Positions 1,530 through 45,098 are shown, counted from the stretch's first letter. The stretch is 45,098 bases of DNA from a virus (IMGVR_UViG_3300028920_000012:1-45098); one strand, 5' to 3'. Program-made: numbers and translations. The notes: generated by a model not told the origin, from the sequence alone.

Positions 1530-2114
1530 TCACCTGTTATGAGGATTGTTTTTGCTAAAAAACTTCTGAAAAAACCGCTTTTCCAAATACTTTGGAATTT
1601 CCTTTTTCTTTTGCCGCCATAGGGCCTCAACCATTTTACGCTGAGGGGTTTTCAGCCGCTTCGTTTTTTTCTCAAGCGGCATTCCCAGTGCCGCCATTTT
1701 CCCCCTCATAGGATCGGACACTTTTTGCGATCTACCGTATTCGTGAATTCGCGCCAGTTGCGCGGGGGTCATATTGTACGACCGCCGGAAACGTTCCTTC
1801 CGCTTGGCGTAGGCGGTTTTTGAAGTGCCCCGCGCTTTTTTCCAGAAAAAGCCGATTTGAATTTTAAACTTTTTTTGACTTGTCCGGCTGCTTCGGAAAT
1901 GCACTAGCCGAGACATAAACAACAGCGGGGAGTGTTTGTTTTTAATGAGCTTTTTCCACGTTCCCCGGCCGCCAGATTCGATCCACGCGCGCAACCAGTT
2001 CCGGTAATGCCCCCCGGCCATTGATGATGCCTCTTTCATCGCCCAGTCCGCTTGAAGCGGGGATTTTTCAATAAACTTTTTGATCTGTTTATCATCAATC
2101 TCAATGTTAAACAT
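1530..2114 (-). CDS. Tail completion / virion morphogenesis-like protein (194 aa)
   Basis: A very basic protein (many Lys and Arg) carrying ARIHEYGRSQ near residues 120-130. The I-HEYG element is typical of phage virion morphogenesis (gpS) and HK97 gp10-like neck proteins. It lies between the neck genes and the tail tube genes, which is where a tail completion or head-tail closure protein is expected. The start ATG overlaps the end of the upstream gene by 8 bp. Family assignment rests on this motif, size, charge and position. Confidence 0.6.
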   Translation of the reverse strand: MFNIEIDDKQIKKFIEKSPLQADWAMKEASSMAGGHYRNWLRAWIESGGRGTWKKLIKNKHSPLLFMSRLVHFRSSRTSQKKFKIQIGFFWKKARGTSKTAYAKRKERFRRSYNMTPAQLARIHEYGRSQKVSDPMRGKMAALGMPLEKKTKRLKTPQRKMVEALWRQKKKEIPKYLEKRFFQKFFSKNNPHNR

Positions 2115-2446: not shown

Positions 2447-3817
2447 TTAATCTATCCTTATTAAATTTATTGTGATTAAATATCCGTCTTTTTGCACGAT
2501 GCCGGTCGTGTCAAATTTCCACGTTGCCCCGGCAATTAAAAATAGATCGCCGTGCTGAAGATCCGGCACATCGTTTGCCGATACCGTCAGGGTTCCCGTC
2601 GCGGTCCACCATCCGGATACATACGGCTCCTGATTCGGTTCCCCCTGCTCAAACACCCCGGTTATCTCTGCCTGTTCTCCCATCACAGGAATATAGGTTA
2701 ATTGTGTGCCGTATATCGCAAGTAAGCTTTGCGCCGCCGCCGAAAGCCCCGCGCTTGCTGCCGCTTCTGCTTCGGTTGGTTCCCGGGCGATTGAATACAA
2801 ACCCGTGACATCTGAGCTTATCCTGCCGATGCCGTCATACCGGCCCGTAATGTCGGATTGCACCAATCCCCGGATATCAAAGAGCATTATCAAATCAGAT
2901 TGCACCAACCCCAGCACATCAAACTTGCCCGTGATATCGGATAAAATGATGCCCAGCACTTTATACCGGCCGGTTATATCTGATTGAAAAATATTGCAGA
3001 GAGAAAACAGGCCGGTAACATCGCTTTGCACCAAATTAAACACATCGAACTTGCCGATGCTGTCGGATTGCACTGAATTAAACACATCATATTTGCCTGT
3101 GAAGTCTGAACAGATCTCATTAAATGCGTTGTATTTCCCGGTTATATCGGATATCAAAAGCCCGGCACTGTCATATTTGCCCGTGATATCGGATATGACA
3201 CACCCGATGCCGTTATACCGGCCGGTAATGTCGGAAAAAACCATATTAAACACGTCATATTTGCCGATGCTATCGGATTGTACCAGCCCTGCGGTATTAA
3301 ATACGCCCGTAATGTCGGATTGCACCAATCCCCGGATATCAAAGAGCATTATCGTGTCAGCCAATACCAGCCCCCGGGCATCGTATTTGCCCGTGATATC
3401 GGATTGCATGATGCCGGCCGCATCAAACAACCCCTTGATGTCTGAGTTTATGATCTGCCGGGAACTATACCTGCCCGTGATATCAGATATCAAAAGCCCG
3501 GCACTGTCATATTTCCCGGTAACATCGGATTGAATAATGTCAAGAATGTCAAACTTGCCGATTGAGTCGGAGTTAATAATGCTAAAAATGTCATATTTAC
3601 CAACCGAATCAGAGTATGTGATATTCCGGATATCGGCCCGGCCCGTGATGTCGGAACTTACCGTATTAAGAGCATCGTACCGGCCGGTAATGTCAGAATA
3701 TACCGTGGTGCCGCCAGACTCCTCGTTTACAATCCCGCCGCCGGGAACCAGGGGCTCAAATCCGGAACCGGAATCCTGGTGGATTCCCTGCCCCGGTATG
3801 ATATAATCTTTTGTCAA
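2447..3817 (-). CDS. Repeat-array neck protein with C-terminal head-tail-joining-like domain (456 aa)
   Basis: Residues 41-348 are 22 tandem copies of a 14-residue unit, consensus SDITGKYD-xx-G-x-hydrophobic-V-Q. The C-terminal 108 residues are a separate domain (LLAIYGTQLTYIPVMG, then ITGVFEQGEPNQE, then TLTVSANDVPDLQHGDLFLI) that resembles lambda gpFII-type head-tail joining proteins in length and beta pattern. The same C-terminal domain ends the 792-residue protein upstream; the two share DEPNQE/GEPNQE, TATGTLT and a final L-RID. The start is TTG at 3817, overlapping the preceding TGA (TTGA), so translation is probably coupled. The repeats may form a fibrous neck appendage. The repeat family itself is not one I can name. 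Confidence 0.65.
   Translation of the reverse strand: MTKDYIIPGQGIHQDSGSGFEPLVPGGGIVNEESGGTTVYSDITGRYDALNTVSSDITGRADIRNITYSDSVGKYDIFSIINSDSIGKFDILDIIQSDVTGKYDSAGLLISDITGRYSSRQIINSDIKGLFDAAGIMQSDITGKYDARGLVLADTIMLFDIRGLVQSDITGVFNTAGLVQSDSIGKYDVFNMVFSDITGRYNGIGCVISDITGKYDSAGLLISDITGKYNAFNEICSDFTGKYDVFNSVQSDSIGKFDVFNLVQSDVTGLFSLCNIFQSDITGRYKVLGIILSDITGKFDVLGLVQSDLIMLFDIRGLVQSDITGRYDGIGRISSDVTGLYSIAREPTEAEAAASAGLSAAAQSLLAIYGTQLTYIPVMGEQAEITGVFEQGEPNQEPYVSGWWTATGTLTVSANDVPDLQHGDLFLIAGATWKFDTTGIVQKDGYLITINLIRID
2774..3697 (-). repeat. Coding 42-bp tandem repeat array (22 units)
   Basis: Twenty-two degenerate 42-bp units encoding 14-residue repeats in the 456-residue protein. Some units are copied exactly within the array: the segment around 2844-2891 recurs around 3305-3353. 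Because the period is a multiple of three, antisense frames also stay open. Long antisense open frames here are therefore artefacts. Confidence 0.9.
3524..3603 (-). repeat. 80-bp exact direct repeat (copy 1, shared with 9642-9721)
   Basis: All 80 bases are identical to 9642-9721, in the same orientation and the same phase of the 14-residue repeat. The copies lie in different genes 6118 bp apart. Confidence 0.92.
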
Positions 3818-6800
3818 TGGCTGATCCCTATCTTAGGACACACATAAACGGTTGTTGATGGTTTCGCCAAGCACGCCCACACCGTATAGACCCCGGCGCT
3901 TCCGGTAATTGCCACCTCTATTTTCTGCGCCACTTCATTTGAAAGCGTTTCGGTCCATGCGGTCAGATCCGAGGTGTGGTCCGCAGGTGTGGTCCGGATG
4001 TCCGCCGCCCGTGTCCGGGTAATGTTTCCCAGTGCGCGAGTTGTGCCGTCCGGCGACTCCACTTCGATCCAGAACTCATCGTTTTGAAGCGTCACGCCGT
4101 CGGTCAGGGTATGCACGGTAAGCGTCGGATTTGCCGCCGTCCACAGATTTGCCAGTCGAAACCGCAAGGGCTTAATCCATTCGGACACACCGGATGCGGC
4201 CGTCATTCTCGCCGAATAATGGTTGTTGCCGTCATAACTGGCCCCACCGGTCCGGTAATTTGTCGTCGACTGCTCGACACTACCCTCCGGATAAACGTGA
4301 TGTAGGTGAAAAAATCCGTCGGCATCATCGCAGGATTCCATTGCAACGCGCCCGGCCGACAGTGTGCCGAGGACAGGCCCGGTTGCCGCCCCGGTTTTGC
4401 ACCGGGCAAACATAGCATTGACCAGCCCGGAACTATCGGGTTTTATTAAATAATCGGTTTGCACGGACAAATCACAATCGGTTACATCAACGTCAATCGT
4501 CCCGGCCCCGGCCTCAAGCAACTGGTCATTCATTGCCGCTAAAAGAGATCCCCCGGCCCACAGAAACGACCCCCCGGCAACATTGATTTTACAAACCGTT
4601 GAAGCCCCCCGGTCAATGTCGGTGTCAAACAACTCGACAACGGTCGCCACGCCGCCCAGCGTATTAACCGCCTCTGCCCCGGCGATGCCTAAATCAAGGG
4701 TGCAGTCATCAAACACCAGATGCCCGGTTACAGGTGAATACATCAGGTCATCGCCCACGGACAGGTACGTCCCCAAAAATTCAAACGACCCGGAAAGTGT
4801 GATATCGTCTGTTATCCCGGTATTTCCGATTTGCGCGGATGCCGCCGCCGTATAATTGCCGGTTGTCCTGTCAACGCTGATAACGTGTAGCGGGTTTGTT
4901 AACGTACCGCTACCGGCCCACGTTAACGCCCCGGTTGTCGCGGTTTCATCATGATCGGAGGCTATATAAATCGTGTCTCCGGCCGCCGCGCCGCTGATAG
5001 CGCTTGAAAGCGCCGTGAACGCGTTTGACCAGTTGTCCGCTGATGCCGGATTTGCCTGATCGGTTGTGCCGTATCCGGGGGAGTTATCGCCACCGGAATA
5101 TACATACCAGTACGGCAGGGGGATGTATGCGGACGGTTCCGTAACATTGATGTCATCAAAATATGCTGAATCGTTATAGGTGCCGACCCCGATTTGACCG
5201 ACCCCAAGCGTGGAATCGGTTACCGATAGTCGCTCAATGTCATCGAGATAAACAGTAATCAAATCATCAACGCGCGTCACCTTTAAATCGTGGTATCCGT
5301 CGTCAGGTATATAGTAGTCATAGGTAATGCTTATGATCTCGCCATCTGTGCCGGACACGCATTTTCTGACAAATATATCCGTGTAGGAGTAAAACGCATA
5401 GTAATAATCTGCCGGACCCTGATACCCGAACACGATACATTCGTCTGCATACGGGTTTGTGCCGGAATCCTCATTTAATTTTGCCGTGCACGTAAATTCA
5501 AAATCACCATATGTCCGGTTGTTTACAAGAGTGTATTCTCCGATCCGGTTTTGACCCGGCCCCGTATGCGTTGTGCTGTTTAAAAAATATCTGTCCCCCC
5601 CATCGGCCTTAATTTCCCATCGACTCGAATTTAGTTCTGTGTAGTTGTCCCTGTCGCCAAAATACTCAATGTCGCTAAACACCGTCTCTGCTTGCGGGGG
5701 GGTTGATCCCTCCCCCTCAACAGCATCAGAATAATCCCACAACCACTCCTCCCAGTTTAGATATCCGTCATAATCATCATCGTCATTCGGGTTTGTCGGA
5801 ATGTCCGTAAGCGCCCGGTAATTTTGCGCTAAAATCGGATACCCGTTTGAGTCATATCCGGACTGCCCGGCAAACGCAGATGGAGAGTCAATATGTCCGC
5901 CGGTCCCAGCAGTAACGTCCGCTATTACCCGCGTGTCTGCCACATCGCGATCCGCAGGCCGCGCCCCGGCGCTGTTTAACACCGAACTTTCAACCGTTGA
6001 GCTTGCCGCCGCCGTAAACCCGGACGGGCACAGCGGTGCAGTTTCAACCCGTGTCGCCGCTTCAATCGCCGCCGCGTCCGGGGTGTGAGAATACGCGCGA
6101 ATGCTTACCGTGTCCCATGCGTCGGACCCGGACTGAGGACTATCATTATCTGACATGTAAACATGCGTCCCGGTTCCCGCGTGGTCAAAATCTTCCCACA
6201 TGGTAAGCGCGTAACTTGCGTACGATCCGGAATCCAATCCCGGAATAATGACATTTCCCACGTGCGATAGCTCTATCGGATTTTCAATGTCCTGCATCAT
6301 CAGGCCGTAAAGCCCCGCGTCGTAAACCACGTTATTTGAAAATACAACGCCAGATCCGCGAATGTACGGGTTACGGAAATAATTATGTGCAAATAAATTG
6401 CCGGTAAGAGAAATGTTATCGATGCCGGGACCTACAATAAGCCCCGCCCCGTGGACACCCTCCGGATGGATCGAATTTTTAAGCGCTTCGGAAATTATGC
6501 AGTTTGACACCGTGCAAGAATCGGTCGTGTCGTACCAGAATTCAAGAATCTCATCGACAGCCCACGACAGTGTGCAATGGTCAATCACTATATTATAGAC
6601 AGATGATGAGCTTGATCCGACGGACATACAATCACGTAGTTGAGGTACATACCAACTCGCGTTATCGCCGTTACGAATACGGATATGCTGCATCAGTACG
6701 TCGTGGGTGCGGATATCAAGTGTTGCCCCCCGGAGAGTAATGCCCGGCGATGGTGCTGTTTGCCCCGCAATGGTGATATAGGGGTTTACGATGGACAGAT

Positions 6801-8625
6801 ATCCGTCAATGGGTATCGTGCCGGACACCTCAAATACTACCAGCCGCGGCCCGGAGGCTTTGACCGCCGCATAAAACGACCCTGTCCCGGAAGTGTTTAG
6901 GTTTGTGACCTTGTAAATCGTGGTGTTATTGGTTCCACGCCCTGCCACCGTATTGGTTCCATACCCCACCGCACCGGGAAATACTGGTAAGGCGTCATTT
7001 TCTGAACCCCATATCACGCCGCCCGTTTGAGCGGGGGTATTTGTCTGTAGCATGAAGTTATCGTTTGCCGGATCTATAAACAACGGATCTTGAAATATCC
7101 CGCCGGTATGCCCGGCTGACTGCCAGGCCGCCTCCTGTGAGCTTTCGTAGGTGGTGCCGCCCCATTGCGTCAGAGTGTTTTCGGTTCCGGCATTGTACCA
7201 GCAGTTATACGTGACAACGGGTGAACCGGAGTCAAACTTTAGGCACCTGTCGCCTGTTCCATCCTCAGTAAGATACACAACGTTATTTTTTACGACAGTT
7301 CCGACCGCTGATTTTAAATAAATCCCGTAGGTAATGTTTTTTGTCGCATCGTCATAAATGGTGTTATTTGTAATTGTGGTGTAATCTGTAGCGCTATTCG
7401 TTTCATATATGGCGTAAATCATGCAGTTTTTGAACAGGTTGCCCGTAACAGTGGTTCCCTCGCACAGGTTCCAGACGCCTATTCCGCATTTTGCTGTGCC
7501 GGAAGGCGATGACACACTGGTATTAATCGGGCAGTTTTCAAAAACGTTGTCTTGAATCACAAAATCACGGGTTGGGTATGACTCTCCAATCTGCGAATAT
7601 GGCAAATAATTCCCGGAGGTGTGTGTGGTTGCACACAGTATGATTCCGGCCTCCCTTGCGTCGTGGAGGTAGTTGTCCCGGATGGTGCAGTTGTACGCCC
7701 AACCGCACGGTTCAGGCTGACTCGGCCTGTCAAACACCGGATCACCGTGAGCGACAATCAGCGGCCCCCCGCTACCGCCGCCCCACCCAAACCCGGCCTC
7801 ACAGTACATTTCATTATCCCTCACGGTAATATTCTGCGTCGCCTTAAGATCCAGACTGTTCTCACCGCCGTTGTATAATGTATTGTCATATATATCCGTT
7901 GCGACTGTTACTCCGCCGAGGTACAGATTATCTGACTCTGTGTCGTGTATTACATTGTCATGGATAGACAGCGTGCCGGAATTTTTCCATGATATAGCAA
8001 GCCCGGCGATGTCCTTACCTTCGTTGCTGTCTGCGATATTTGACGGACCGCAGTTGAATATGGTGCAGTTTTTAATTTCCACTGCGCCCCGCGACCAGTA
8101 CACATTCATTGCACATGCGCCGTATTCGTTTTGATTTGTTGCGCCCCCGTGTCCATTAAAATAAAGGCCATCGAGTGTTATGCCATCAAGATAACGCAGA
8201 TACCCTTGTGTAATTTTGCCGCCTGTGTATACATTCTGGCCCGAATAATCTATATTTTTTAAGGTCAGGTTCTTGATGCTGTACTGGTTTGACTCGCAAT
8301 CAATACGTATGGGAAATATCACATCCCCGTTAATCCACGGTTTATCCCCGGTCCCGTAATCTTGAACCGTGATACCAGTGATACCGGGAGACACACAGGC
8401 AGAAAGAGTGAGTCGTGCATCCGTAAACGTGCTGCCCCTCTTTAAACAAATGGTATCGCCGTCTGAAAATGCGACCGAGTTGACTTTACTTATCGTTGCC
8501 CATGCATTTGCATCGGATGTCCCGGAAAGGCCGTCGTTCCCACCGTTTTTGATATAATATGTCGTTGCATTTGCCGTTACGATGGGTAACAGAAGAAAAA
8601 AAAGTAAAAAAACAAACCGTTTCAT
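3814..8625 (-). CDS. Secreted polysaccharide-lyase / parallel beta-helix chimera (1603 aa)
   Basis: A classic Sec signal peptide covers residues 1-20 (KRF, a hydrophobic core, then ANA before TTYY). Domain order: parallel beta-helix with repeated N-x-I-x-D-N rungs (about 25-540); a pectate-lyase-like beta-helix beginning at FPGAVGYGTNTVAGRG, with HCTLSWAVDEI and AHNYFRNP motifs (about 548-830); an acidic Ca-binding-like loop NPNDDDDYDGYLNWEEW; a LamG-like jelly roll (about 940-1140); and a C-terminal beta-helix of about 420 residues. That last domain starts YVYSGGDNSPG and continues GDTIYIASDHDE, a style common in phage structural proteins. ATG at 8625 overlaps the upstream TGA (ATGA). The enzyme part could cut host polysaccharide. 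A secretion signal on a virion protein is odd, and secretion from the lysogen is an alternative. Confidence 0.7.
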   Translation of the reverse strand: MKRFVFLLFFLLLPIVTANATTYYIKNGGNDGLSGTSDANAWATISKVNSVAFSDGDTICLKRGSTFTDARLTLSACVSPGITGITVQDYGTGDKPWINGDVIFPIRIDCESNQYSIKNLTLKNIDYSGQNVYTGGKITQGYLRYLDGITLDGLYFNGHGGATNQNEYGACAMNVYWSRGAVEIKNCTIFNCGPSNIADSNEGKDIAGLAISWKNSGTLSIHDNVIHDTESDNLYLGGVTVATDIYDNTLYNGGENSLDLKATQNITVRDNEMYCEAGFGWGGGSGGPLIVAHGDPVFDRPSQPEPCGWAYNCTIRDNYLHDAREAGIILCATTHTSGNYLPYSQIGESYPTRDFVIQDNVFENCPINTSVSSPSGTAKCGIGVWNLCEGTTVTGNLFKNCMIYAIYETNSATDYTTITNNTIYDDATKNITYGIYLKSAVGTVVKNNVVYLTEDGTGDRCLKFDSGSPVVTYNCWYNAGTENTLTQWGGTTYESSQEAAWQSAGHTGGIFQDPLFIDPANDNFMLQTNTPAQTGGVIWGSENDALPVFPGAVGYGTNTVAGRGTNNTTIYKVTNLNTSGTGSFYAAVKASGPRLVVFEVSGTIPIDGYLSIVNPYITIAGQTAPSPGITLRGATLDIRTHDVLMQHIRIRNGDNASWYVPQLRDCMSVGSSSSSVYNIVIDHCTLSWAVDEILEFWYDTTDSCTVSNCIISEALKNSIHPEGVHGAGLIVGPGIDNISLTGNLFAHNYFRNPYIRGSGVVFSNNVVYDAGLYGLMMQDIENPIELSHVGNVIIPGLDSGSYASYALTMWEDFDHAGTGTHVYMSDNDSPQSGSDAWDTVSIRAYSHTPDAAAIEAATRVETAPLCPSGFTAAASSTVESSVLNSAGARPADRDVADTRVIADVTAGTGGHIDSPSAFAGQSGYDSNGYPILAQNYRALTDIPTNPNDDDDYDGYLNWEEWLWDYSDAVEGEGSTPPQAETVFSDIEYFGDRDNYTELNSSRWEIKADGGDRYFLNSTTHTGPGQNRIGEYTLVNNRTYGDFEFTCTAKLNEDSGTNPYADECIVFGYQGPADYYYAFYSYTDIFVRKCVSGTDGEIISITYDYYIPDDGYHDLKVTRVDDLITVYLDDIERLSVTDSTLGVGQIGVGTYNDSAYFDDINVTEPSAYIPLPYWYVYSGGDNSPGYGTTDQANPASADNWSNAFTALSSAISGAAAGDTIYIASDHDETATTGALTWAGSGTLTNPLHVISVDRTTGNYTAAASAQIGNTGITDDITLSGSFEFLGTYLSVGDDLMYSPVTGHLVFDDCTLDLGIAGAEAVNTLGGVATVVELFDTDIDRGASTVCKINVAGGSFLWAGGSLLAAMNDQLLEAGAGTIDVDVTDCDLSVQTDYLIKPDSSGLVNAMFARCKTGAATGPVLGTLSAGRVAMESCDDADGFFHLHHVYPEGSVEQSTTNYRTGGASYDGNNHYSARMTAASGVSEWIKPLRFRLANLWTAANPTLTVHTLTDGVTLQNDEFWIEVESPDGTTRALGNITRTRAADIRTTPADHTSDLTAWTETLSNEVAQKIEVAITGSAGVYTVWACLAKPSTTVYVCPKIGISH

Positions 8626-11000
8626 GAATCAATCCTTACCAGTGAGATATCCACTAAATATAAGTTTTTTTCAATTATGCCGTCAGCATCCAGCATCCAC
8701 CACTCATCGTCGATTATAAACCTGTCGCCATACACCACGTTTCCGAGGTCCGTGGCAAGTCCGGTAAGCGTCCCGGTTGCGGTATCAAGCCCCCGAACAT
8801 ACGCTTCCTGATTCGGCTCATCACGCTGAAACGCCCCCTGTATCGTCGTGTTTATTCCGCTTGCCGGTCTGTAAAACACATCGCCGCCCAGCACGGAAAG
8901 CATGTCAAACACGGCTTGTCGCAACTTATCATCTAATTCTGACAAGATACTGAATTTACCAATACCGTCGGAAAACACTTCCGTTGTCAGATCGTACCGG
9001 CCGGTAACGTCAGACATTAAAAATTCGGCACTGTCGTATTTCCCGGTAATGTCTGATTGCACAAACTCCCGCATATTATACCGGCCGGTAATGTCGGAAA
9101 AAACCATGTTTGACAAAATGTCGTACAACCCGGTAACGTCACTTTGCATGATGCCCAGCACATCAAACCTGCCGACCAGATTTGACAGACAAATATTCCG
9201 AGCATCAAATTTTCCGGTAACATCGCTTTGCACCAAATTAAACACATCGAACTTGCCGATTGAGTCGGATGACACAATATCAAGAATGCCGAACTTGGCG
9301 GTTGAATCGGAACTGACGACACTCAGCACGCCAAATTTGCCGATTGAGTCAGATAAAATAACTCCTGCGGTGTCGTACCTGCCCGTCAGGTTTGATAAGA
9401 TTATATTCAACAGGCCGTATTTCCCGGTAATGTCTGATTGCACAATGTCAAGGATGCCAAACTTGCCGATGCTGTCGGATGACACAATATCAAGAATGCC
9501 GAACTTGGCGGTTGAATCAGAGGCTATAATACCCAGCACGTCAAATTTTCCCGTGCTGTCGGATGATATGCGCCCTATCGTATCGTATTTGCCGGTAATA
9601 TTTGACAGGGCGATATTCCGGGCATCAAATTTGCCCGTGATATCGGATTGAATAATGTCAAGAATGTCAAACTTGCCGATTGAGTCGGAGTTAATAATGC
9701 TAAAAATGTCATATTTACCAATTGTGTCAGCCTGTACCAACTCGCGCGAATCAAATTTGCCCGTGATATCGCCCTGTACCAGCCCCCGCGAATCGTATTT
9801 ACCGATGGCGTCGCTTTGCACCAGCCCCCGGACATCGTACTTTCCGACACTGCTTGAATACACCGTGTTAAAAATATCATATTTACCGATTACGTCGGAA
9901 CTGACAGCAGACAGCCCCACGTTTACCGGGGTGCCCGGTACCGCAAACGTTGACGGGCTTGACTGATTATTATACTCGGTTGAAATCCACCCGGAGGCAA
10001 GGGCTGCGGACAGCACCCGCACCTCGTCAAGCTTGCCCTCAAATCGCCTTGTGTCGGTTGTAAACCGTGCGCCGATACATAAGTGCTGATCGGTAGACTC
10101 AAATCCGGAATAACTGCCCGAAGCCGTCTGTTGCGCCCCGTCCACGTACAAATATTGGTTTGACCCATCGTTTGTGGCGTGGAGCATGTACCATTGACTG
10201 GCTGTTACTGTGGCATTTGAATAGACAGCCGACGATCTGAGCGTGTCTGTGTTATCTCTAAACCAGAAGTGCCATTTATCATCCCCGGCCCGGTAGTGGT
10301 GTATGTAATGGTCATGCCCAATCGTGCACCCCATCACTGGGCCGTACGAGTCAGCCGGGTCAGTCGAATAGGCCCATGCCTGAAGCGTATAGGCCGAAAT
10401 GCCGGTATTGATCGTATCCCCGCCGATTGGAGTACCCTTTAAAAAACAGTCGCCCGTACCGTCAAAATCAATGCCTTTGCCGAGTTTGGCGTCCACTAGA
10501 TCTCCGGAGGCCATCGACCCGTAAGAGGTCATATCAAAATCGTTTGAGGTCGAATCGGTAAGCTGCGGAGCCGACCCGGACGGGTCTTGATTCATGTGGA
10601 ATACGGCGAGATAGTTGCTGTTCCAGACGTTTTCCGAACCATACGTGTCATTTGCCGCCGGTTGAGTTTCTCCGGATTTGTGGTACCAGACGTAGATCGA
10701 GGTGTTACTCGAAGATGACAAAGAGCGTTTTACATGGATTTCCGCTTTGCCGTTTGCCGGGTTGTTGTCGGTCGTAAATGTTACAATCTCGCACGGGAGA
10801 CGGTTGGTACCGGCCTCGTCAGACGAAAAACGGATATCGCCCCCGCCGTTTAACGCCGGAAACGATCCGTCCGCATCAAATATCTCTGAATCGAAATTAT
10901 CCTTATTTAAAAAAATCGGAAAATCGGCACAGTTTGTATCGACTTTTGACGCGGGAATTTCGATTTCATGCCTGCGGCCCCAACCGTCCGGGAATGCCAT
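8622..11000 (-). CDS. LamG/DUF2341-bearing repeat-array neck protein (792 aa)
   Basis: Residues of about 10-105 match the DUF2341 style (IEIPASKVDTNCADFPIFLN, later IYVWYHKSG). Residues of about 120-355 form a LamG/concanavalin-like domain (AVFHMNQDPSG-S--LTDSTSNDFD, then GKLDEVRVLSAALASGWI and TEYNNQSSPSTF). Residues 368-690 are 23 copies of the 14-residue SDxxGKYD repeat. The last 102 residues are the same head-tail-joining-like domain that ends the 456-residue protein. ATG at 11000 overlaps the preceding stop by one base. The domains point to a neck component carrying a carbohydrate-binding fibre or whisker. Duplication with its shorter sister is evident. Confidence 0.65.
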   Translation of the reverse strand: MAFPDGWGRRHEIEIPASKVDTNCADFPIFLNKDNFDSEIFDADGSFPALNGGGDIRFSSDEAGTNRLPCEIVTFTTDNNPANGKAEIHVKRSLSSSSNTSIYVWYHKSGETQPAANDTYGSENVWNSNYLAVFHMNQDPSGSAPQLTDSTSNDFDMTSYGSMASGDLVDAKLGKGIDFDGTGDCFLKGTPIGGDTINTGISAYTLQAWAYSTDPADSYGPVMGCTIGHDHYIHHYRAGDDKWHFWFRDNTDTLRSSAVYSNATVTASQWYMLHATNDGSNQYLYVDGAQQTASGSYSGFESTDQHLCIGARFTTDTRRFEGKLDEVRVLSAALASGWISTEYNNQSSPSTFAVPGTPVNVGLSAVSSDVIGKYDIFNTVYSSSVGKYDVRGLVQSDAIGKYDSRGLVQGDITGKFDSRELVQADTIGKYDIFSIINSDSIGKFDILDIIQSDITGKFDARNIALSNITGKYDTIGRISSDSTGKFDVLGIIASDSTAKFGILDIVSSDSIGKFGILDIVQSDITGKYGLLNIILSNLTGRYDTAGVILSDSIGKFGVLSVVSSDSTAKFGILDIVSSDSIGKFDVFNLVQSDVTGKFDARNICLSNLVGRFDVLGIMQSDVTGLYDILSNMVFSDITGRYNMREFVQSDITGKYDSAEFLMSDVTGRYDLTTEVFSDGIGKFSILSELDDKLRQAVFDMLSVLGGDVFYRPASGINTTIQGAFQRDEPNQEAYVRGLDTATGTLTGLATDLGNVVYGDRFIIDDEWWMLDADGIIEKNLYLVDISLVRIDS
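8931..9899 (-). repeat. Coding 42-bp tandem repeat array (23 units)
   Basis: Twenty-three 14-residue units; unit 19 has one extra residue. Several units are near identical to each other (the block SDSTAKFGILDIVSSDSIGK occurs twice), and one 80-bp block is identical to the array in the 456-residue gene. Confidence 0.9.
9642..9721 (-). repeat. 80-bp exact direct repeat (copy 2, shared with 3524-3603)
   Basis: Identical to 3524-3603. Recombination between the copies would delete 6118 bp, including the whole lyase gene, and fuse the LamG half of this gene in frame to the C-terminal domain of the 456-residue gene. Confidence 0.92.
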
Positions 11001-13119: not shown

Positions 13120-15141
13120 TTAGGTGCCAGCATTGTAATACAGCGCCGCCCAGTGCACGGCTTTTGCCCCAGCGTCAATCCTGACCTTGCTTTCAAACCC
13201 ATCAACGGTGAATCCGGGCCGGTTTTCCATGTACGGGGTTTGCTTGCCGTCGAGGAAAAACATTTTAACGGTTTTCCCCTTCGGCCCGGCCAGATACCAC
13301 GCGGTTGAGGAGGTGTCATCAAGACGCGGTTCGTACACCTGTGTAAAATAGCCCCCGGAATACGGGTTTGCCCGGGTTGCCGCAAGACTTGAATCCGTTG
13401 CCACCGTGTCCGAATCCGCGTATTTTTCAGATTTGAAAAACACCCGCATAACGCCCTCAAGCGCTTTCGGTGCAATGAAAAACTCAGGGCTGATGTTCAG
13501 CCGCCGCAGACCCTGTAGGTCTTTTTGTGTGCCCATTGCCAAAATCGCCGCCGCCAGGGTAGCAATTCCCGGCGCGCCCACGTCACCGCCGGACGCAATG
13601 TTTCCATGATCGGAGACAAACAGCGCGGCCCCATCGCCCATATCGGCATTAGCTGTCAAAACGGCATAGGCGATATCGCCCAGTTTTCGCTGAACCGCTT
13701 CACCGTGCGCCGCCGCTATCGTGGTCAGGGCATTCAGGTCATCGTTAATTACGCACTGACGAGAAATCGGGAAAATTTTTCCATACGTAAGGACAGAATA
13801 GGTTTCCTGCGCCTCTGTGCGCTTTCCATATTTGTACTCCACATCTTCCGGCACTTCGTCCAGATCCGAGGACTCGGACACGCGCGGGAGGTAGTTGGTT
13901 TTAAAATCCGAAACAGACCCGATATCACACCACGTTCTCCACGTTTCGGAAGCGGTTTCAAACCCCTTAAAAAGCGATTTATTCGCGACGTTTGCCAGCA
14001 AATACGGAAAATCGGAGGTCGTCATTGCTCGTCCAACCATTTCCAACACCCCGCCGCCAGTCGGAAGGTTTGCGATCCGGAGCGAATGCCGCGCCAGTTC
14101 GCGCAGGGAATACCCGGCCAGGTCATCGGCACCGAGCACCGGTTTTTCAACGGACATTCCCGCCCGGATCAGAACAGCATCCGTTGCCGCCGTCCGGAAC
14201 TTGTCTTTTTCATCTTCTCCGTGGGTCATGGGTGTGCGATGCTTGGTTTCTTTTCTGGCCTCAATCAACTTGTCTTGCACCGTCTTCCTCGCGCTATCAA
14301 GGGTAGCACCCCCGGAAATCAGTTCATCGGCCATGTCGATCTCCAACCCGTCGCACATCGCCCGAATTTCCGTAATTCGTTCACGCTCAATCCGGACAGC
14401 CTCGGCCCGCTCTTTTTCCACGTCCGGCATGTCAACAGCCTTCGGAATTTCGAGTTTCTCGAGATAACTCCACGCTTCGGCTTCCGTGGCATCGGCCCGA
14501 AGCCCTCTGCTCTCTAGGTATTTTCTCAATTTTTCGTCCATATTCTCTTTCTCCTGTTTCGATTTTGGTTCGTTATGCTCAGTCCGTGCTTTTGCCCGTT
14601 CATCTGCTCCAATCGGGCAAATTGAAAGTTCCTTGACCCGCCAACGTGTCACCACGCTGACAGGCCCCTCAAACGTCCGGCCCCCGATCACTTTTTCCTC
14701 ACCATCGGCTACCCATGTTGAATCGATCACCAGATACCCCACGGAAAAATCCGTTAAGTGGCCCTCGCGCATTTTTGTGTAAGGGCTTTCGGCTTCCGGC
14801 GCTGTCGAAAAATAACTCCTACCCACCAGCTGATCACCGTCAACGAGCATGTCGCGGTAAGATCCCAAGACGCTGTAAGAGTCATATCTGCTATGGGTAT
14901 CTAAAAGCGGGACTTGCCGAGATCCCGGCATTTCGCACCCGGACATCAATAATATTTCGTCGATCACCTCCCACCGGGCGTAATCAAATACCTGCACTCG
15001 ATCCTCGGTTGTTCCGACGACCTCAACACTCCGACTGTCCTCGTCAAGCGTTGAGGGGGTGCCGTCCGCCGCCGCCCGGATAGGTAGTGTTCGATAATTC
15101 AGATTGTTTTTTGGATTACTTCTTTTGTTTATCTTCTTCAT
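13120..15141 (-). CDS. Fused prohead protease and Mu gpT-like major capsid protein (673 aa)
   Basis: Residues of about 17-190 are an HK97-type (S78) prohead protease: VPLLDTHSRYDS with His83 and LTDFSVGY with Ser133 fit the catalytic pair. Residues of about 195-300 are charged and helical (MDEKLRKYLESRG, EKERAEAVRIERERITEIRA) and look like a scaffold (delta) domain. Residues of about 340-673 match the Mu gpT-like major head subunit, with YGKIFPISRQCVINDDL, LFVSDHGNIASGG and a C-terminal AVHWAALYYNAG. The fused precursor implies self-processing: the protease and scaffold would be cut away during maturation. The start ATG at 15141 lies 26 bp inside the end of the portal gene, behind GGAGAGGA. 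Confidence 0.85.
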   Translation of the reverse strand: MKKINKRSNPKNNLNYRTLPIRAAADGTPSTLDEDSRSVEVVGTTEDRVQVFDYARWEVIDEILLMSGCEMPGSRQVPLLDTHSRYDSYSVLGSYRDMLVDGDQLVGRSYFSTAPEAESPYTKMREGHLTDFSVGYLVIDSTWVADGEEKVIGGRTFEGPVSVVTRWRVKELSICPIGADERAKARTEHNEPKSKQEKENMDEKLRKYLESRGLRADATEAEAWSYLEKLEIPKAVDMPDVEKERAEAVRIERERITEIRAMCDGLEIDMADELISGGATLDSARKTVQDKLIEARKETKHRTPMTHGEDEKDKFRTAATDAVLIRAGMSVEKPVLGADDLAGYSLRELARHSLRIANLPTGGGVLEMVGRAMTTSDFPYLLANVANKSLFKGFETASETWRTWCDIGSVSDFKTNYLPRVSESSDLDEVPEDVEYKYGKRTEAQETYSVLTYGKIFPISRQCVINDDLNALTTIAAAHGEAVQRKLGDIAYAVLTANADMGDGAALFVSDHGNIASGGDVGAPGIATLAAAILAMGTQKDLQGLRRLNISPEFFIAPKALEGVMRVFFKSEKYADSDTVATDSSLAATRANPYSGGYFTQVYEPRLDDTSSTAWYLAGPKGKTVKMFFLDGKQTPYMENRPGFTVDGFESKVRIDAGAKAVHWAALYYNAGT

Positions 15142-16657
15142 TTTCTTTATCCTCTCCGGTTATCGCCGCCGGGTTGTTCGCCACTGAGGTAGAAATTGGC
15201 TTGTCTTTGATTCCATATTTTTTTTGCAGGTCTTTTGCCGCCTTGATCTCGCGGTAAACGTCCTCCAAATCCCGGCCCCGCGCTTTTGCGTGTTCCTGTG
15301 GGGAAATAAGATTTCTATCCAGTTTGTCCACATTTGCTTTTGTTTCCCGTAGCGGGTCAAGCGACGCCATACCGGGAATCTGCCATTCCGCTTTCAAATA
15401 TTGCGCGGGGTTCGTGAAATAGCGGGGGAAGCTTAGTTTCCCGGACAATACGGCAGAGTCCATAAATCCGCGTAGCGTCGGTTTGCAAAAGTGCCGTATG
15501 TGCCGGGTTTGAAGCGGGACAAGGGATTTTTTGAAATCTTCGCGGACAATTTTACCGTTTGAATACGAAAGCCCTTGGTAATCCCCGGATATGATCTCGT
15601 AGGGAACACCGGTCGTAATAGACAACATAGTCAAAATCAGTTTTACAAACGGGGGGAAATTGGTTCCCGGGTTCGGGTTTGATGCGATTTTCACATCCTC
15701 TCCCGGCCGCAAATACTCAATAATTGCGTTTTCCATTTCCTCGATTTTTTGCCCCGTGTCCGAATCAGTTGTCATTTTTGCGTTTTGGTGTGAAAGCGGG
15801 TCCGGGGTTGTTACGAGCGCAAGGTATTTTGCAGACATTTTTGTGGTGTCAATTGTGGCATCCATGTAGGTCGACAAATCATTTGCCAGCAACACGCCCG
15901 GCGCAAACGGGGTAATCCCCCGGAACTGTCCCGGACGCAGTGTCTCAAACCCGTGGATCACCTGATCTGCCGGAATACGTTCCGTTTTTCCCCATCCGTC
16001 CGGATCTGTGATATGCACCGCCAGCACAATACCTGTACTCGGATCGTATTCTATCCCCTGTGATATCTCCGCACCCGTTCCCGTTTTTTCGGAATTACTG
16101 GATAACCAGTCTGGTTCGATCATTTGGAGGGCATACGGGAGGTATCTGTTTTGTTTGCGCCACCGCTCAATGATTAAAAACTCGCCGCATTCGCTATCCT
16201 GTGATTTGGCGAGCCTCATCATTTCATAGTAGTGGAGCTTTTTCGCGATGTCGGCCTCGTCCGCCCAAAAATTAAACGCATCCTCTGCTTGCTGGGCTTT
16301 TTTTTGATCGAGTTTGCCCGATACATTGGTAATCCGTGCCTGATAAAACAGCCCCGCCCCTACCGTATAATCCGTGATAGACCGTACCGCCCGGGCAAAG
16401 TACGGGAAGTCCCTGACCAGCTGCCGGACCCTGGCCCGGACAGTCGGAGAACTTGCCTCAATGATGTCATTAACGGTTGAATCTGTTGGTGACCATGTGC
16501 CGGTCATGCGGTTTGTTTTTGCGGCCGCGTAGGTTGCGGAGCGGGAGCGGATCGCTTCGCGTTTTTCCCTGTATAACATGCGGTGCAATTCGGCTTTTGG
16601 TGAAAACAGGCCAATAGCGCCATCAATCACCGCCGCAATGGATTTATAAAAACTCAA
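15116..16657 (-). CDS. Portal protein, lambda family (513 aa)
   Basis: A full-length lambda gpB-type portal: an N-terminal SATYAAAKTNRMTGTWSPT segment, RARVRQLVRDFPYFARAVRSI, IEPDWLSS, GFETLRPGQFRGITPFAPGV, and SYSNGKIVREDFKKSL before a charged C-terminus. It forms the dodecameric DNA entry ring at the capsid vertex. The start is TTG at 16657 overlapping the gpW-like TGA (TTGA), so it is probably translationally coupled. It is followed by the protease-capsid fusion, as in lambdoid head operons. Confidence 0.9.
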   Translation of the reverse strand: MSFYKSIAAVIDGAIGLFSPKAELHRMLYREKREAIRSRSATYAAAKTNRMTGTWSPTDSTVNDIIEASSPTVRARVRQLVRDFPYFARAVRSITDYTVGAGLFYQARITNVSGKLDQKKAQQAEDAFNFWADEADIAKKLHYYEMMRLAKSQDSECGEFLIIERWRKQNRYLPYALQMIEPDWLSSNSEKTGTGAEISQGIEYDPSTGIVLAVHITDPDGWGKTERIPADQVIHGFETLRPGQFRGITPFAPGVLLANDLSTYMDATIDTTKMSAKYLALVTTPDPLSHQNAKMTTDSDTGQKIEEMENAIIEYLRPGEDVKIASNPNPGTNFPPFVKLILTMLSITTGVPYEIISGDYQGLSYSNGKIVREDFKKSLVPLQTRHIRHFCKPTLRGFMDSAVLSGKLSFPRYFTNPAQYLKAEWQIPGMASLDPLRETKANVDKLDRNLISPQEHAKARGRDLEDVYREIKAAKDLQKKYGIKDKPISTSVANNPAAITGEDKENEEDKQKK

Positions 16658-16869: not shown

Positions 16870-16930
16870 GCAACCCCCCTATAATATTAATATTTCCTTA
16901 TACCACGGGTTTTTTTGGCTTTTGGTTTTT

Positions 16931-16990
16931 ACCGGAATTTAGGGGTTTTTACCGGAATTTAGGGGTTTTTACCGGAATTTAGGGGTTTTT
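16931..16990. repeat. Three perfect 20-bp direct repeats (iteron-like)
   Basis: The unit ACCGGAATTTAGGGGTTTTT occurs three times head to tail with no mismatch. Iterons of this kind bind replication initiators, terminase small subunits or transcription activators; which applies here cannot be told from sequence. Confidence 0.9.
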
Positions 16991-23024: not shown

Positions 23025-23816
23025 CTATCCTCCAAACAGCTTGAGTTGCCGGGTCTCTGCTTCGATTCGTTTTGCTGCTAATTCGCAATATTGTTCTGAT
23101 ATCTCTATTCCGATCCAACGACGGTTTAGTTTTTCACACGCTAAAATAGTTGAGCCACCGCCAGTAAAAGGGTCTATGACAACATCACCGGATTGTGTAT
23201 GGAGCATAATAAAGTGACTCGGAAGCAAAACCGGCTTAGGGGTTGGATGATCGCTTAAAGATGGGATTATCTTTTTAATACCGCTGCTTGGTCTAATTAT
23301 GTTCTCTATCTTTTTGGACTTGTCAAACCACCTGCACGCCGCACCTGGTTTTTCTGCCACAAGGATAGTTTCATAGCTTCTCCGATAGTGCCAACCCATC
23401 CCCATCGGCCCTTTGTCCCATACGACCATCTGTTTGAAATTCAATATCTCATCTATCCACAATGACCACCGTGCAAATTGCGGGGCTGGCCCACCACCAC
23501 CACAACAACAACAACAACAACAACAACCAGCGGCAAGTAGTCGCGGAAACTCTTTCAGCGCATTTTTGAAAAGTTCGTTTGCCTCGTCCCCGTCGTTTGC
23601 AATCGGCCTATTGTCTCGCTCTGGCACATAATCACCACAGCCCAACGCAGCCTCCCGCCTTGAAATCAAATCACCGTTATTATTATTATGACCATACGGC
23701 GGATCTGTAAAAATCATATCTATACTGCCCGACTCCAACTTCGGCATAACCTCCAAGCAATCCCCACAGTAAAGCTTCCCTAACTTTGTTTCAAAATACG
23801 GTTTTAGTACAGCCAT
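23025..23816 (-). CDS. DNA methyltransferase, DPPY (beta-class) type (263 aa)
   Basis: Site-specific amino-methyltransferase using S-adenosylmethionine. The catalytic DPPY motif is at residues 38-41 and the cofactor motif DPFTGGGST at 215-223, the order of beta-class N6-adenine or N4-cytosine enzymes. GIEISEQYCELAAKRI at the end fits motif II. Residues 98-109 are eight Cys then four Gly, encoded by a trinucleotide microsatellite. It overlaps the endolysin gene by 13 bp and may protect phage DNA from host restriction. ATG at 23816 behind GGAGGTGG. Confidence 0.85.
   Translation of the reverse strand: MAVLKPYFETKLGKLYCGDCLEVMPKLESGSIDMIFTDPPYGHNNNNGDLISRREAALGCGDYVPERDNRPIANDGDEANELFKNALKEFPRLLAAGCCCCCCCCGGGGPAPQFARWSLWIDEILNFKQMVVWDKGPMGMGWHYRRSYETILVAEKPGAACRWFDKSKKIENIIRPSSGIKKIIPSLSDHPTPKPVLLPSHFIMLHTQSGDVVIDPFTGGGSTILACEKLNRRWIGIEISEQYCELAAKRIEAETRQLKLFGG
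23491..23527. repeat. Trinucleotide microsatellite inside the methyltransferase gene
   Basis: CCA units run into CAA units on the plus strand, encoding Gly and then eight Cys on the minus strand. Length changes stay in frame, so this would alter tract length, not switch the gene off. Confidence 0.85.
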
Positions 23817-30563: not shown

Positions 30564-31057
30564 ATCCGGGAATTACAAAAACCGCTCCCGGTTTTATGGC
30601 CGGGTTGCATGTTGCGCCGTGGCTGATACGTCCGGAAATTATTGCGGTCGTGCAGTGGCAAGGAGTTGAGGAAGCGGCCGAGTTTTTGCGAATAGTAAGA
30701 ATGGGATGGTATCCAAAAATCATTGTCGCTATCGAAAAGCAGTGGTGGTGGGGGTCGGATAAAAACAGGGGCTACGCAATATCCTCACTGGTAGCAAATT
30801 ACCATTGTTATTTAGGTATTTGCGCGGCACTTGAATTGCAGGTAAAACCAATAACGGCAAAGACATGGCAATCCATAATGATACCTAAAACGCTTTTTGC
30901 CGGAAACACAAAAGCGCGGAGTTTGTCTCGGGCTAGGCGACGATGGGGTAAGGACATCGAACAATATATCAAGGCAAAAAAAAATCATGGTGCCGCAGAT
31001 GCGTTAAATATAGCGGATTTTGCGGCCCGGATCTACAAACCGAGGAGGGGTAAATGA
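30530..31057 (+). CDS. RuvC-like Holliday junction resolvase (175 aa)
   Basis: RNase H-fold nuclease: the first acidic residue is Asp12 in YLGIDPG, the second Glu69 in IIVAIEKQ, and the C-terminal NHGAADALNIADFA supplies His153 and Asp157. This matches RuvC-type junction resolvases that debranch recombination intermediates before packaging. ATG at 30530 behind AAGGA. It follows the RecE/RecT genes, completing a recombination set. Confidence 0.8.
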   Translation: MQKKGCLYLGIDPGITKTAPGFMAGLHVAPWLIRPEIIAVVQWQGVEEAAEFLRIVRMGWYPKIIVAIEKQWWWGSDKNRGYAISSLVANYHCYLGICAALELQVKPITAKTWQSIMIPKTLFAGNTKARSLSRARRRWGKDIEQYIKAKKNHGAADALNIADFAARIYKPRRGK

Positions 31058-32076
31058 GCTTCCACTTTAAAAATCTCGTTTTCGAGGGAGGGGGAGTAAA
31101 AGCAGTTGCGTATCCCGGCGCTTTAAAAGCGTTATTTGATGCCGGAATATATGATCACATCGAGCGGGTTGCAGGAGTGTCCGCAGGTGCGATAGTCGCC
31201 GCACTGGTTGCCGTGGGATACACACCTGTGCAGATTGAAAAAATCATGCTGGCCGCCCCGTTCAATGCGTTTCTAGATGAATCGTTTGGTGTAATCCGTG
31301 ATGTCCGGCGGTTTATGTATAAATTCGGATGGTTCGAGGGTGAGAACCTGCAAAACTGGATACAATCGTTGATCGAGGCAAAAACAGGCATTCATGATCC
31401 ATCTTTTGGCCGTCTGTCAAAAATGGGATATCGAAATCTATATGTGCTTACAACGGATTTATCAACACGGACTCAACGGATACACTCGCACGAGACCACT
31501 CCGCTACACTGTGTTGCAAAAACCGTGGCAAACAGCTGTAGGATTCCATTCGTTTTTGCGGCCCAGCAATCCATTTACGGGCACTGCATTGTAGATGGGG
31601 GCCTGGTCAACAACTACCCGGTTAAAATATTCGATCAACGCAGGTACGCGGAAAGCAGGGAACGCCGCGCAACAAAATATTACCGACATGCCAATAAATC
31701 TATTCTTACCCGGAAAAAACAGCACGTCTATAATAAATCGACCCTCGGATTCCGGTTGGATTCCGGTACACAAATTGCCGCTATGATGATGGGCAATGTC
31801 AAGCCGTGTCGAAAAATTGACAGTATCGTGGATTTTACCGTCGCGGTTATCGGCGCGATGATGGACGCGCAGGACAACCGGCACCTGCATTCCGACGATT
31901 GGCAGCGGACCGTGTATATTAACACCGGGGGGGTCAGTGCAATGGATTTTAACATTCCGGACACGCGCAAGACAGCGTTGTGTGAAACGGGGTATAAATC
32001 CACGGCAAAATATTTATCATGGTATAAGCGGAGTCATCCGGTCAATAAGATCCGGACAACAAAAAATTTACCCTGA
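31054..32076 (+). CDS. Patatin-like phospholipase (340 aa)
   Basis: All patatin landmarks are present: an oxyanion loop FEGGGVKA (residues 10-17), the nucleophile elbow GVSAG with Ser43, and the second catalytic element DGG with Asp181. Patatins hydrolyse acyl chains of membrane phospholipids. The C-terminal half (about 200-340) is basic and not recognised. ATG overlaps the resolvase stop (ATGA). The next gene encodes a small membrane protein. Roles could include membrane remodelling, superinfection exclusion or host lipid use. Confidence 0.85.
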   Translation: MSFHFKNLVFEGGGVKAVAYPGALKALFDAGIYDHIERVAGVSAGAIVAALVAVGYTPVQIEKIMLAAPFNAFLDESFGVIRDVRRFMYKFGWFEGENLQNWIQSLIEAKTGIHDPSFGRLSKMGYRNLYVLTTDLSTRTQRIHSHETTPLHCVAKTVANSCRIPFVFAAQQSIYGHCIVDGGLVNNYPVKIFDQRRYAESRERRATKYYRHANKSILTRKKQHVYNKSTLGFRLDSGTQIAAMMMGNVKPCRKIDSIVDFTVAVIGAMMDAQDNRHLHSDDWQRTVYINTGGVSAMDFNIPDTRKTALCETGYKSTAKYLSWYKRSHPVNKIRTTKNLP

Positions 32077-44791: not shown

Positions 44792-45098
44792 TTATTCAAC
44801 ACTGGTACCACTGGTGAACGCCGTGTCGCGGGTTATAGTCCCGTAACAAAGCCCGGCAAATGCGATGGTCACCCCGTCCTCCGCTTCCGAAATTGACAAC
44901 TGGTCCAGCGGAAACAGGATTTCGTTGTAATGCCACACGATATCTGTCGAGGAGTCCAACCGATACTCAAGGTTGCAACACATTTTCGTGCCGTCAGCAA
45001 ATGTCGGATTATAGTTTGTGCCATCGCGTTTAGTGTCACCCTGCGTTGTGGTCAGGGTTTTTGAGTTCACGGCCCCGGATGATTGCACCGGGCTTGCG
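44792..45098 (-). CDS. Tail tube-like protein, C-terminal part (continuation of the gene starting at 420)
   Basis: This is the C-terminal end of the 199-residue protein begun at 420; bases above 44971 duplicate the window start. It contains the YNPTFADGTK and SEAEDGVTIAFAG segments shared with its 342-residue paralogue, and ends at a TAA at 44792. It lies 23 bp upstream of the predicted tail assembly chaperone at 44768. Confidence 0.7.
   Translation of the reverse strand, partial: ASPVQSSGAVNSKTLTTTQGDTKRDGTNYNPTFADGTKMCCNLEYRLDSSTDIVWHYNEILFPLDQLSISEAEDGVTIAFAGLCYGTITRDTAFTSGTSVE
44972..45098. repeat. Terminal overlap of a circular contig (copy 2)
   Basis: Exact second copy of bases 1-127. 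It should be removed to obtain the non-redundant genome. Confidence 0.95.

Follow-up and report, generated by a model that had tools for sequence, protein, structure and literature searches.

Stopper domains of the lambda gpFII type fused to long 14-residue repeat arrays: candidate neck fibres in a temperate phage

The IMG/VR virus record IMGVR_UViG_3300028920_000012 (45,098 bases, the whole of which is referred to here as the window) carries on its minus strand two genes, P0001 (2447-3817, 456 amino acids (aa), TTG start) and P0002 (8622-11000, 792 aa), whose products join a long array of tandem 14-residue units to a C-terminal domain resembling the lambda gpFII stopper. Stoppers are small, conserved gate proteins. 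It is rather likely, considering the evidence presented below, that the stopper ring of this phage bears outward beta-rich arms, the longer ones tipped with a LamG domain, which would serve as neck fibres for contact with the host or with polysaccharide. The placement of P0001 and P0002 in the neck is well supported. An earlier account made from the DNA alone (the sequence-only reading) had described the interval 2447-11000 as two proteins; both are present, and the interval also holds a third gene, encoding the 1603-aa protein P0003.

Concerning the C-terminal domains, sequence, predicted fold and gene order identify them as stoppers of the lambda gpFII type. Copy A spans residues 349-456 of P0001 (2450..2773, minus strand) and matches the Phage_attach family PF05354 over the cut-off (2.2e-7), and copy B, residues 692-792 of P0002 (8625..8927, minus strand), matches it at 1.2e-4, with 23 bits against a cut-off of 26. 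The two copies are 43-44% identical to each other, and copy B scores 7.7e-38 with a stopper profile that was built including copy B. NCBIfam tail_join_FII was also found on P0001, below its cut-off (7.1e-5). An AlphaFold model of the last units and the C-terminal domain of P0001 showed a helix and a beta-barrel, with a predicted local distance difference test (pLDDT) score of the block of up to 89. Its best Foldseek matches in the PDB were gpFII in the lambda virion (8xow and 8k37, E = 1.9e-5), followed by neck proteins of Chi, T4 and R4C, and among the matches in the viral library are proteins labelled as head-tail attachment and as neck protein. Both genes lie between the capsid and decoration genes and the Neck1 and tail genes, as expected of a stopper; their products, of 456 and 792 aa, are not the single domains of about 100-120 aa that stoppers usually are. 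The sequence-only reading had taken the two domains as homologous head-tail joining proteins of the gpFII type and had named a mismatch with head-tail joining folds as one of the results that would overturn it; Pfam, structure prediction with Foldseek and synteny all agree with the assignment, and no such mismatch appeared.

The structural genes on the minus strand follow the order portal, capsid, decoration, a 188-aa protein, P0002, P0003, P0001, a 112-aa protein, a Neck1-like protein and a 342-aa probable tail tube protein. The portal and protease-capsid genes (13120..16657, minus strand; PF05136 7.6e-78, PF25209 1.6e-44) anchor the synteny upstream and are 62% (portal) and 58% (capsid) identical to their counterparts in the related contig L012, and the Neck1-like or tail completion protein (1530..2114, minus strand; phrog_222, 0.0035) anchors it downstream of the stopper, with 43% identity to the L012 protein that comes after a plain stopper. 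At the corresponding place, seven related contigs (L012-L014, L035, L021, L015 and L017) encode a single plain stopper-like protein of 104-109 aa. The clear homologues are those of L012-L014, where one 109-aa protein with the stopper domain precedes the Neck1 and 342-aa homologues, and that of L035 (108 aa). The proteins of L021, L015 and L017 measure 106, 106 and 104 aa, respectively; in BLAST against P0001, L015 gave a weak match and L017 and L021 hardly any, and the L021 record matches PF05354 over the cut-off. A single plain stopper, as carried by the relatives, is therefore the normal arrangement, to which this phage has added the arms, a second copy and the insertion of P0003. The duplication and N-terminal fusion, already called abnormal for a joining protein in the sequence-only reading, are thus unusual among these relatives as well.

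No unfused stopper is left in this genome: the stopper profile, run on every open segment of 30 aa or more in the six frames, found nothing beyond the two fused domains. With regard to an internal start for a plain stopper, there is no ATG, GTG or TTG at residues 341-377 of P0001, and the TTG at 340 lacks a sequence resembling a ribosome site. The start candidates near the boundary of array and stopper in P0002 lack such a sequence too, and GTG 647, which has a weak one, falls inside the array. Because the genome has no other stopper and no internal start precedes the P0001 domain, both copies are, as far as the sequence tells, obligate fusions, and the stopper ring must bear arms unless these are cleaved. 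Cleavage during maturation, which would leave the arms a role in assembly only and the virion with plain stoppers, is very improbable. The genome has a protease-capsid fusion (PHROG 4523 and 133 matches), but no conserved linker lies between array and stopper, and the arms are long and retained in two paralogues. It is also conceivable, with a lower probability than that of a ring bearing neck fibres, that P0001 alone is the working stopper and that the stopper-like domain of its paralogue P0002 just docks a LamG adhesin on the neck or tail. P0001 is nearer to Neck1 and the tail genes and has the higher PF05354 score, that of P0002 being slightly below the cut-off. Nevertheless, both domains keep the positions conserved in plain stoppers and lie at almost the same distance from the L012 stopper, which, although plain, is itself below the Pfam PF05354 cut-off, so that the cut-off does not discriminate.

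In P0001, a short N-terminal segment (residues 1-40; 3698..3817, minus strand) precedes an array of 22 units of 14 residues (residues 41-348; 2774..3697, minus strand), and in P0002 residues 368-691 (8928..9899, minus strand) form 23 units, one of them of 15 residues. The 45 units of both arrays have the consensus S-D-[ISV]-[TI]-G-[KR]-[YF]-D-[IV]-x-[GN]-[IL]-[VI]-x, with S1 conserved in 42/45, D2 and G5 in 41/45 each, Y or F at position 7 in 44/45 and D8 in 31/45; at position 11, 39/45 units have G, N, D or S. Both arrays reach a self-identity of 0.46 at lag 14, and no lag in any of 1000 shuffles gave more than 0.15. The lengths of the two proteins and their 22 and 23 tandem units of the SDxxGKYD type, as given in the sequence-only reading, agree with these coordinates, counts and self-identity. 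From the sequence pattern, unit positions 10-11 and 14-2 look like turns, and between them lie segment 3-9, with alternating hydrophobic residues, and the short hydrophobic segment 12-13. An AlphaFold model of eight units was all beta, and its middle units presented a strand at 3-9, a turn and a strand at 12-13, which is consistent with a solenoid coil of two strands; if each coil adds 0.48 nm, an array of 22-23 such units would be approximately 10.5-11 nm long. The structure prediction that the sequence-only reading proposed as a check therefore gave a gpFII-like fold for the C-terminal domain and, for the array, a beta model at a weak pLDDT of 56.

The units are considered old because the same codon is used at shared residues in 46% of cases, barely above the 41% expected from array codon usage; synonymous sites are nearly saturated while the key residues are kept. 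Recent exchanges have also left traces: between the genes, units A03-A04 and B05-B06 agree in DNA at 88% and 100% (92% across 106 nt) and A16 and B16 at 93%, and within single genes there are a five-unit duplication in B and the pairs A08-A09 with A19-A20. These exchanges and the segmental duplication could indicate that the arrays are mainly a recombination substrate, in which repeat exchange alters arm length or surface and evades recognition by host or competitor. This is quite unlikely as the main function, since most units are far diverged and their near-saturated synonymous sites point to slow turnover in the single genome compared; it is, moreover, compatible with arms acting as neck fibres.

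Pfam assigned no family to either array. A match of Holin_BhlA (1.3e-5) on P0001 was rejected, being a short match inside the array that fails as a stand-alone stretch, and an alignment of the units was discarded as a search basis because they are too variable. Searches of PDB sequences with the array and the stopper gave no significant match, and Foldseek with the array model gave no trustworthy one. No relative turned up when IMG/VR and GTDB contigs were scanned for peptide patterns taken from P0001 and from an artificial SDITGKYD consensus, a kind of scan that divergent units escape. A relative was detected by profile in Aeromonas phages of the Casjensviridae, whose tail-tip proteins end in units such as ADLTAPYGLRPGVI: hhalign of the array unit against theirs gave an E-value of 3e-6, and four column-permuted controls were all negative. 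Judged by sequence profiles, these repeats are the sole array family with demonstrated kinship to the arrays of P0001 and P0002. They share the 14-residue unit, but they form the C-terminal end of a tail-tip protein about 1400 aa long, whereas the arrays described here belong to neck proteins.

P0002 carries an additional N-terminal module (residues 1-367; 9900..11000, minus strand), formed by a DUF2341-like region followed by a LamG (concanavalin A-like) domain at residues 201-339. The LamG domain, noted in the sequence-only reading, is clear (PF13385, 1.9e-18, 67.5 bits against a cut-off of 27.6). The DUF2341 domain also named there found no match to its profile (PF10102) in P0002 itself; the homologous module of contig L043 does match it over the cut-off (9.4e-6) and that of L041 nearly reaches it. 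Homologues of the P0002 N-terminus are encoded in ten viral contigs. Pfam recognised no lectin domain in P0001 and no lectin-type domain in the tail-end proteins, and the latter makes P0002 the best candidate for an adhesin of this phage, although not a proven one. A long low-complexity SPSSSxSxSPS stalk comes after the LamG module in L044 (4597-8010), another kind of repeat spacer behind the same module.

Two of the ten contigs, L041 and L043, also carry 14-residue-period arrays of a different unit, as does the Desulfofustis phage L011. In L043 the module gene comes directly after the protease, the capsid and two small genes, and the contig stops inside the array. With a consensus of the unit type seen in L041 and L043, array proteins of 554-607 aa that are not fused, adjoin capsid genes and have no Pfam family were reached in L049/L050, L052 and L053. 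Their ITKSLTYxV units are mostly of 14 residues (L049 5113-6777, L052 4717-6465, L053 5152-6975). In L052 and L053 the array gene is followed by a head-tail adaptor (phrog_442) and then by a stopper-type protein (phrog_615; PF05521 for L053), and in L049 it lies ahead of the protease and capsid. With hhalign, the array unit of P0001 and P0002 against the ITKSLTYxV arrays of L049, L052 and L053 gave an E-value of 0.58, no better than permuted controls, so that what they have in common is the period and the gene position only. A search of the 14-residue unit across viral proteins, suggested in the sequence-only reading, thus yielded the Aeromonas relative and left the ITKSLTYxV arrays unrelated by profile; homology to the L011 array was tested and not shown. 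The unfused arrays (L043, L049, L052 and L053, and L011 and L041 with LamG plus array) share with P0001 and P0002 the 14-residue period, some of them the LamG domain (L043, L041, L011) and some the capsid or connector neighbourhood (L043, L049, L052, L053). They differ in their units, of the ITKSLTYxV and SYDLxLxV types, and lack the stopper fusion where the C-terminus is known. The sequence-only reading makes no mention of such unfused arrays. It can be hypothesized that all these arrays are of one common kind. As proteins fused in one genome tend to cooperate elsewhere, the fusion in this phage could be a clue that the unfused arrays also sit at the neck.

Regarding these data, a hexameric gpFII-type ring built of P0001, P0002 or both would lie between the adaptor and the tail terminator, and from each subunit an N-terminal arm, rich in beta structure and 22-23 units long, would extend outward where head and tail meet. 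The lambda ring consists of six gpFII, whose N-terminal helices (residues 4-24) encircle the adaptor barrel (PMC10721106), and a helix of the R4C stopper touches the adaptor (PMC10276861). Because these stopper helices lie on the adaptor, some 300 residues added at the N-terminus should emerge on the outer side of the ring, close to the head. The neck could be surrounded by as many as six arms, those of P0002 ending in the LamG lectin-type domain, and these arms may act as short neck fibres that touch the host surface or the surrounding polysaccharide, as the neck passage structures (NPS) of lactococcal phages do. Their anchoring would be achieved by fusion to the stopper, in place of a separate collar protein. 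Adhesion is plausible since known neck devices bind host cells, as the neck carbohydrate-binding modules of lactococcal 936 phages do (PMC6669499). The neck whiskers or collar fibres proposed in the sequence-only reading are thus upheld as to neck position by the stopper domain, and the fibre role is reasonable by analogy with the lambda helices outside the adaptor.

The LamG domain at the far end of P0002, the conservation of the unit at protein level and the related array at the Aeromonas tail tip argue for neck fibres. Several points weigh against them: the evidence for the fibres is genomic; the fold prediction of the array is weak; no sequence similarity to the arrays of P0001 and P0002 was detected in the unfused ones of other phages; and two different stoppers in one genome would allow either a mixed or a single composition of the ring. 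In addition, the carbohydrate-binding module of the neck fibre of Anabaena phage A-1(L) showed no host binding (PMC10966104). This last result, together with the absence of a recognised lectin domain in P0001, also suits a different function, in which non-adhesive arms wrap the neck or a capsid vertex and reinforce the head-tail junction, with LamG as a packing domain. The neck decorations of Staphylococcus phage 812 reinforce interfaces and seem structural (PMC12886913), and its stopper has an external beta-sandwich. However, the far-end LamG of P0002 and the related arrays at the host-contacting Aeromonas tail tip favour contact with the outside, and purely structural arms are considered unlikely.

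P0003 (3814..8625, minus strand), located between the two fusions, overlaps each neighbour gene by 4 nt and presents matches to a beta-helix family (PF13229, 3.2e-11) and to a pectate lyase (phrog_27797, 1.6e-42). Its start, MKRFVFLLFFLLLPIVTANA, reads to us as a classical signal-peptide-like stretch, and P0003 may be a secreted depolymerase. An enzyme of exported type is odd within a neck gene cluster, and P0003 only possibly belongs to the neck device. In L035, two proteins with signal-peptide-like starts (6246-7067 and 7160-7630) are encoded directly ahead of the plain stopper, and exported proteins at the stopper locus may recur.

The window very probably represents the whole of a circular genome of some 44,971 bp, because 127 identical bases are common to both ends (1-127 and 44972-45098) and a protein frame at 44792-45097 runs on across the junction. 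The genes include a terminase of the lambda type, a portal, a protease-capsid fusion, an integrase and a tape-measure protein, and the virus is accordingly a temperate phage with a long tail, probably siphovirus-like. Two probable tail-tube proteins, related to each other, are encoded in succession (498-1526, and the frame spanning the ends, to 44792), as in L012. A 20-bp repeat with 3.3 perfect copies at 16924-16990, just upstream of the portal gene, is a possible operator or binding site. An ACA triplet microsatellite of 8.7 copies (23502-23527) lies in frame within a methyltransferase gene (23025-23816) and encodes a cysteine run in the DNA methylase, so that the gene would not be turned off by changes in repeat length. 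A patatin-like phospholipase is encoded among the early genes, at 31054-32076 (PF01734, 1e-31).

This genome has no stoppers other than the two with long repeat arms, which shows that large extensions are tolerated in the gate ring. A stopper ring can then serve as an anchor for surface fibres, and the neck was probably turned into an attachment device. The fusion also suggests a neck location for the unannotated 14-residue-period array proteins beside capsid or connector genes in other phages. More tentatively, these beta-array proteins, encoded where head and neck join in many uncultivated phages, might be neck-anchored adhesin stalks, which the two stopper fusions would reveal; the DNA-gating ring of each virion of this phage would then bear as many as six surface arms, and contact with the host at the neck could be coupled to the gate.

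Compared with known systems, lambda gpFII and other PF05354 stoppers share the domain sequence, predicted fold and gene position of the C-termini of P0001 and P0002, but they are normally single and of about 104-120 aa, whereas here there are two copies with N-terminal extensions of about 350-690 aa. No stopper fused to a repeat array was found in the open-access literature. The stopper of phage 812, with its extra external beta-sandwich domain (PMC12886913), resembles the extended stoppers described here, but it has no repeat array and no LamG, and the whisker proteins are separate. The lactococcal NPS (936, TP901-1) are neck-located and modular, with carbohydrate-binding modules at the far end, like the arms proposed here, and their proteins have exchanged a pectin-lyase-like domain (PMC6669499, PMC10684548). 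They consist, nevertheless, of a separate protein with a BppU-type collar domain and a trimeric coiled-coil stalk, whereas in this phage the stopper would be the anchor and the 14-residue repeat the stalk; Pfam showed no BppU-type domain in P0001 or P0002, and the array model is beta (with low confidence), not coiled coil. Phage A-1(L) also has neck-attached fibres with a carbohydrate-binding module at the far end (PMC10966104), as proposed here, but they are formed by separate gp82-gp81-gp80 on a pentadecameric ring with no stopper fusion. Hence, neck fibres are a known kind of structure, and the unusual part in this phage is their anchor by fusion to the stopper.

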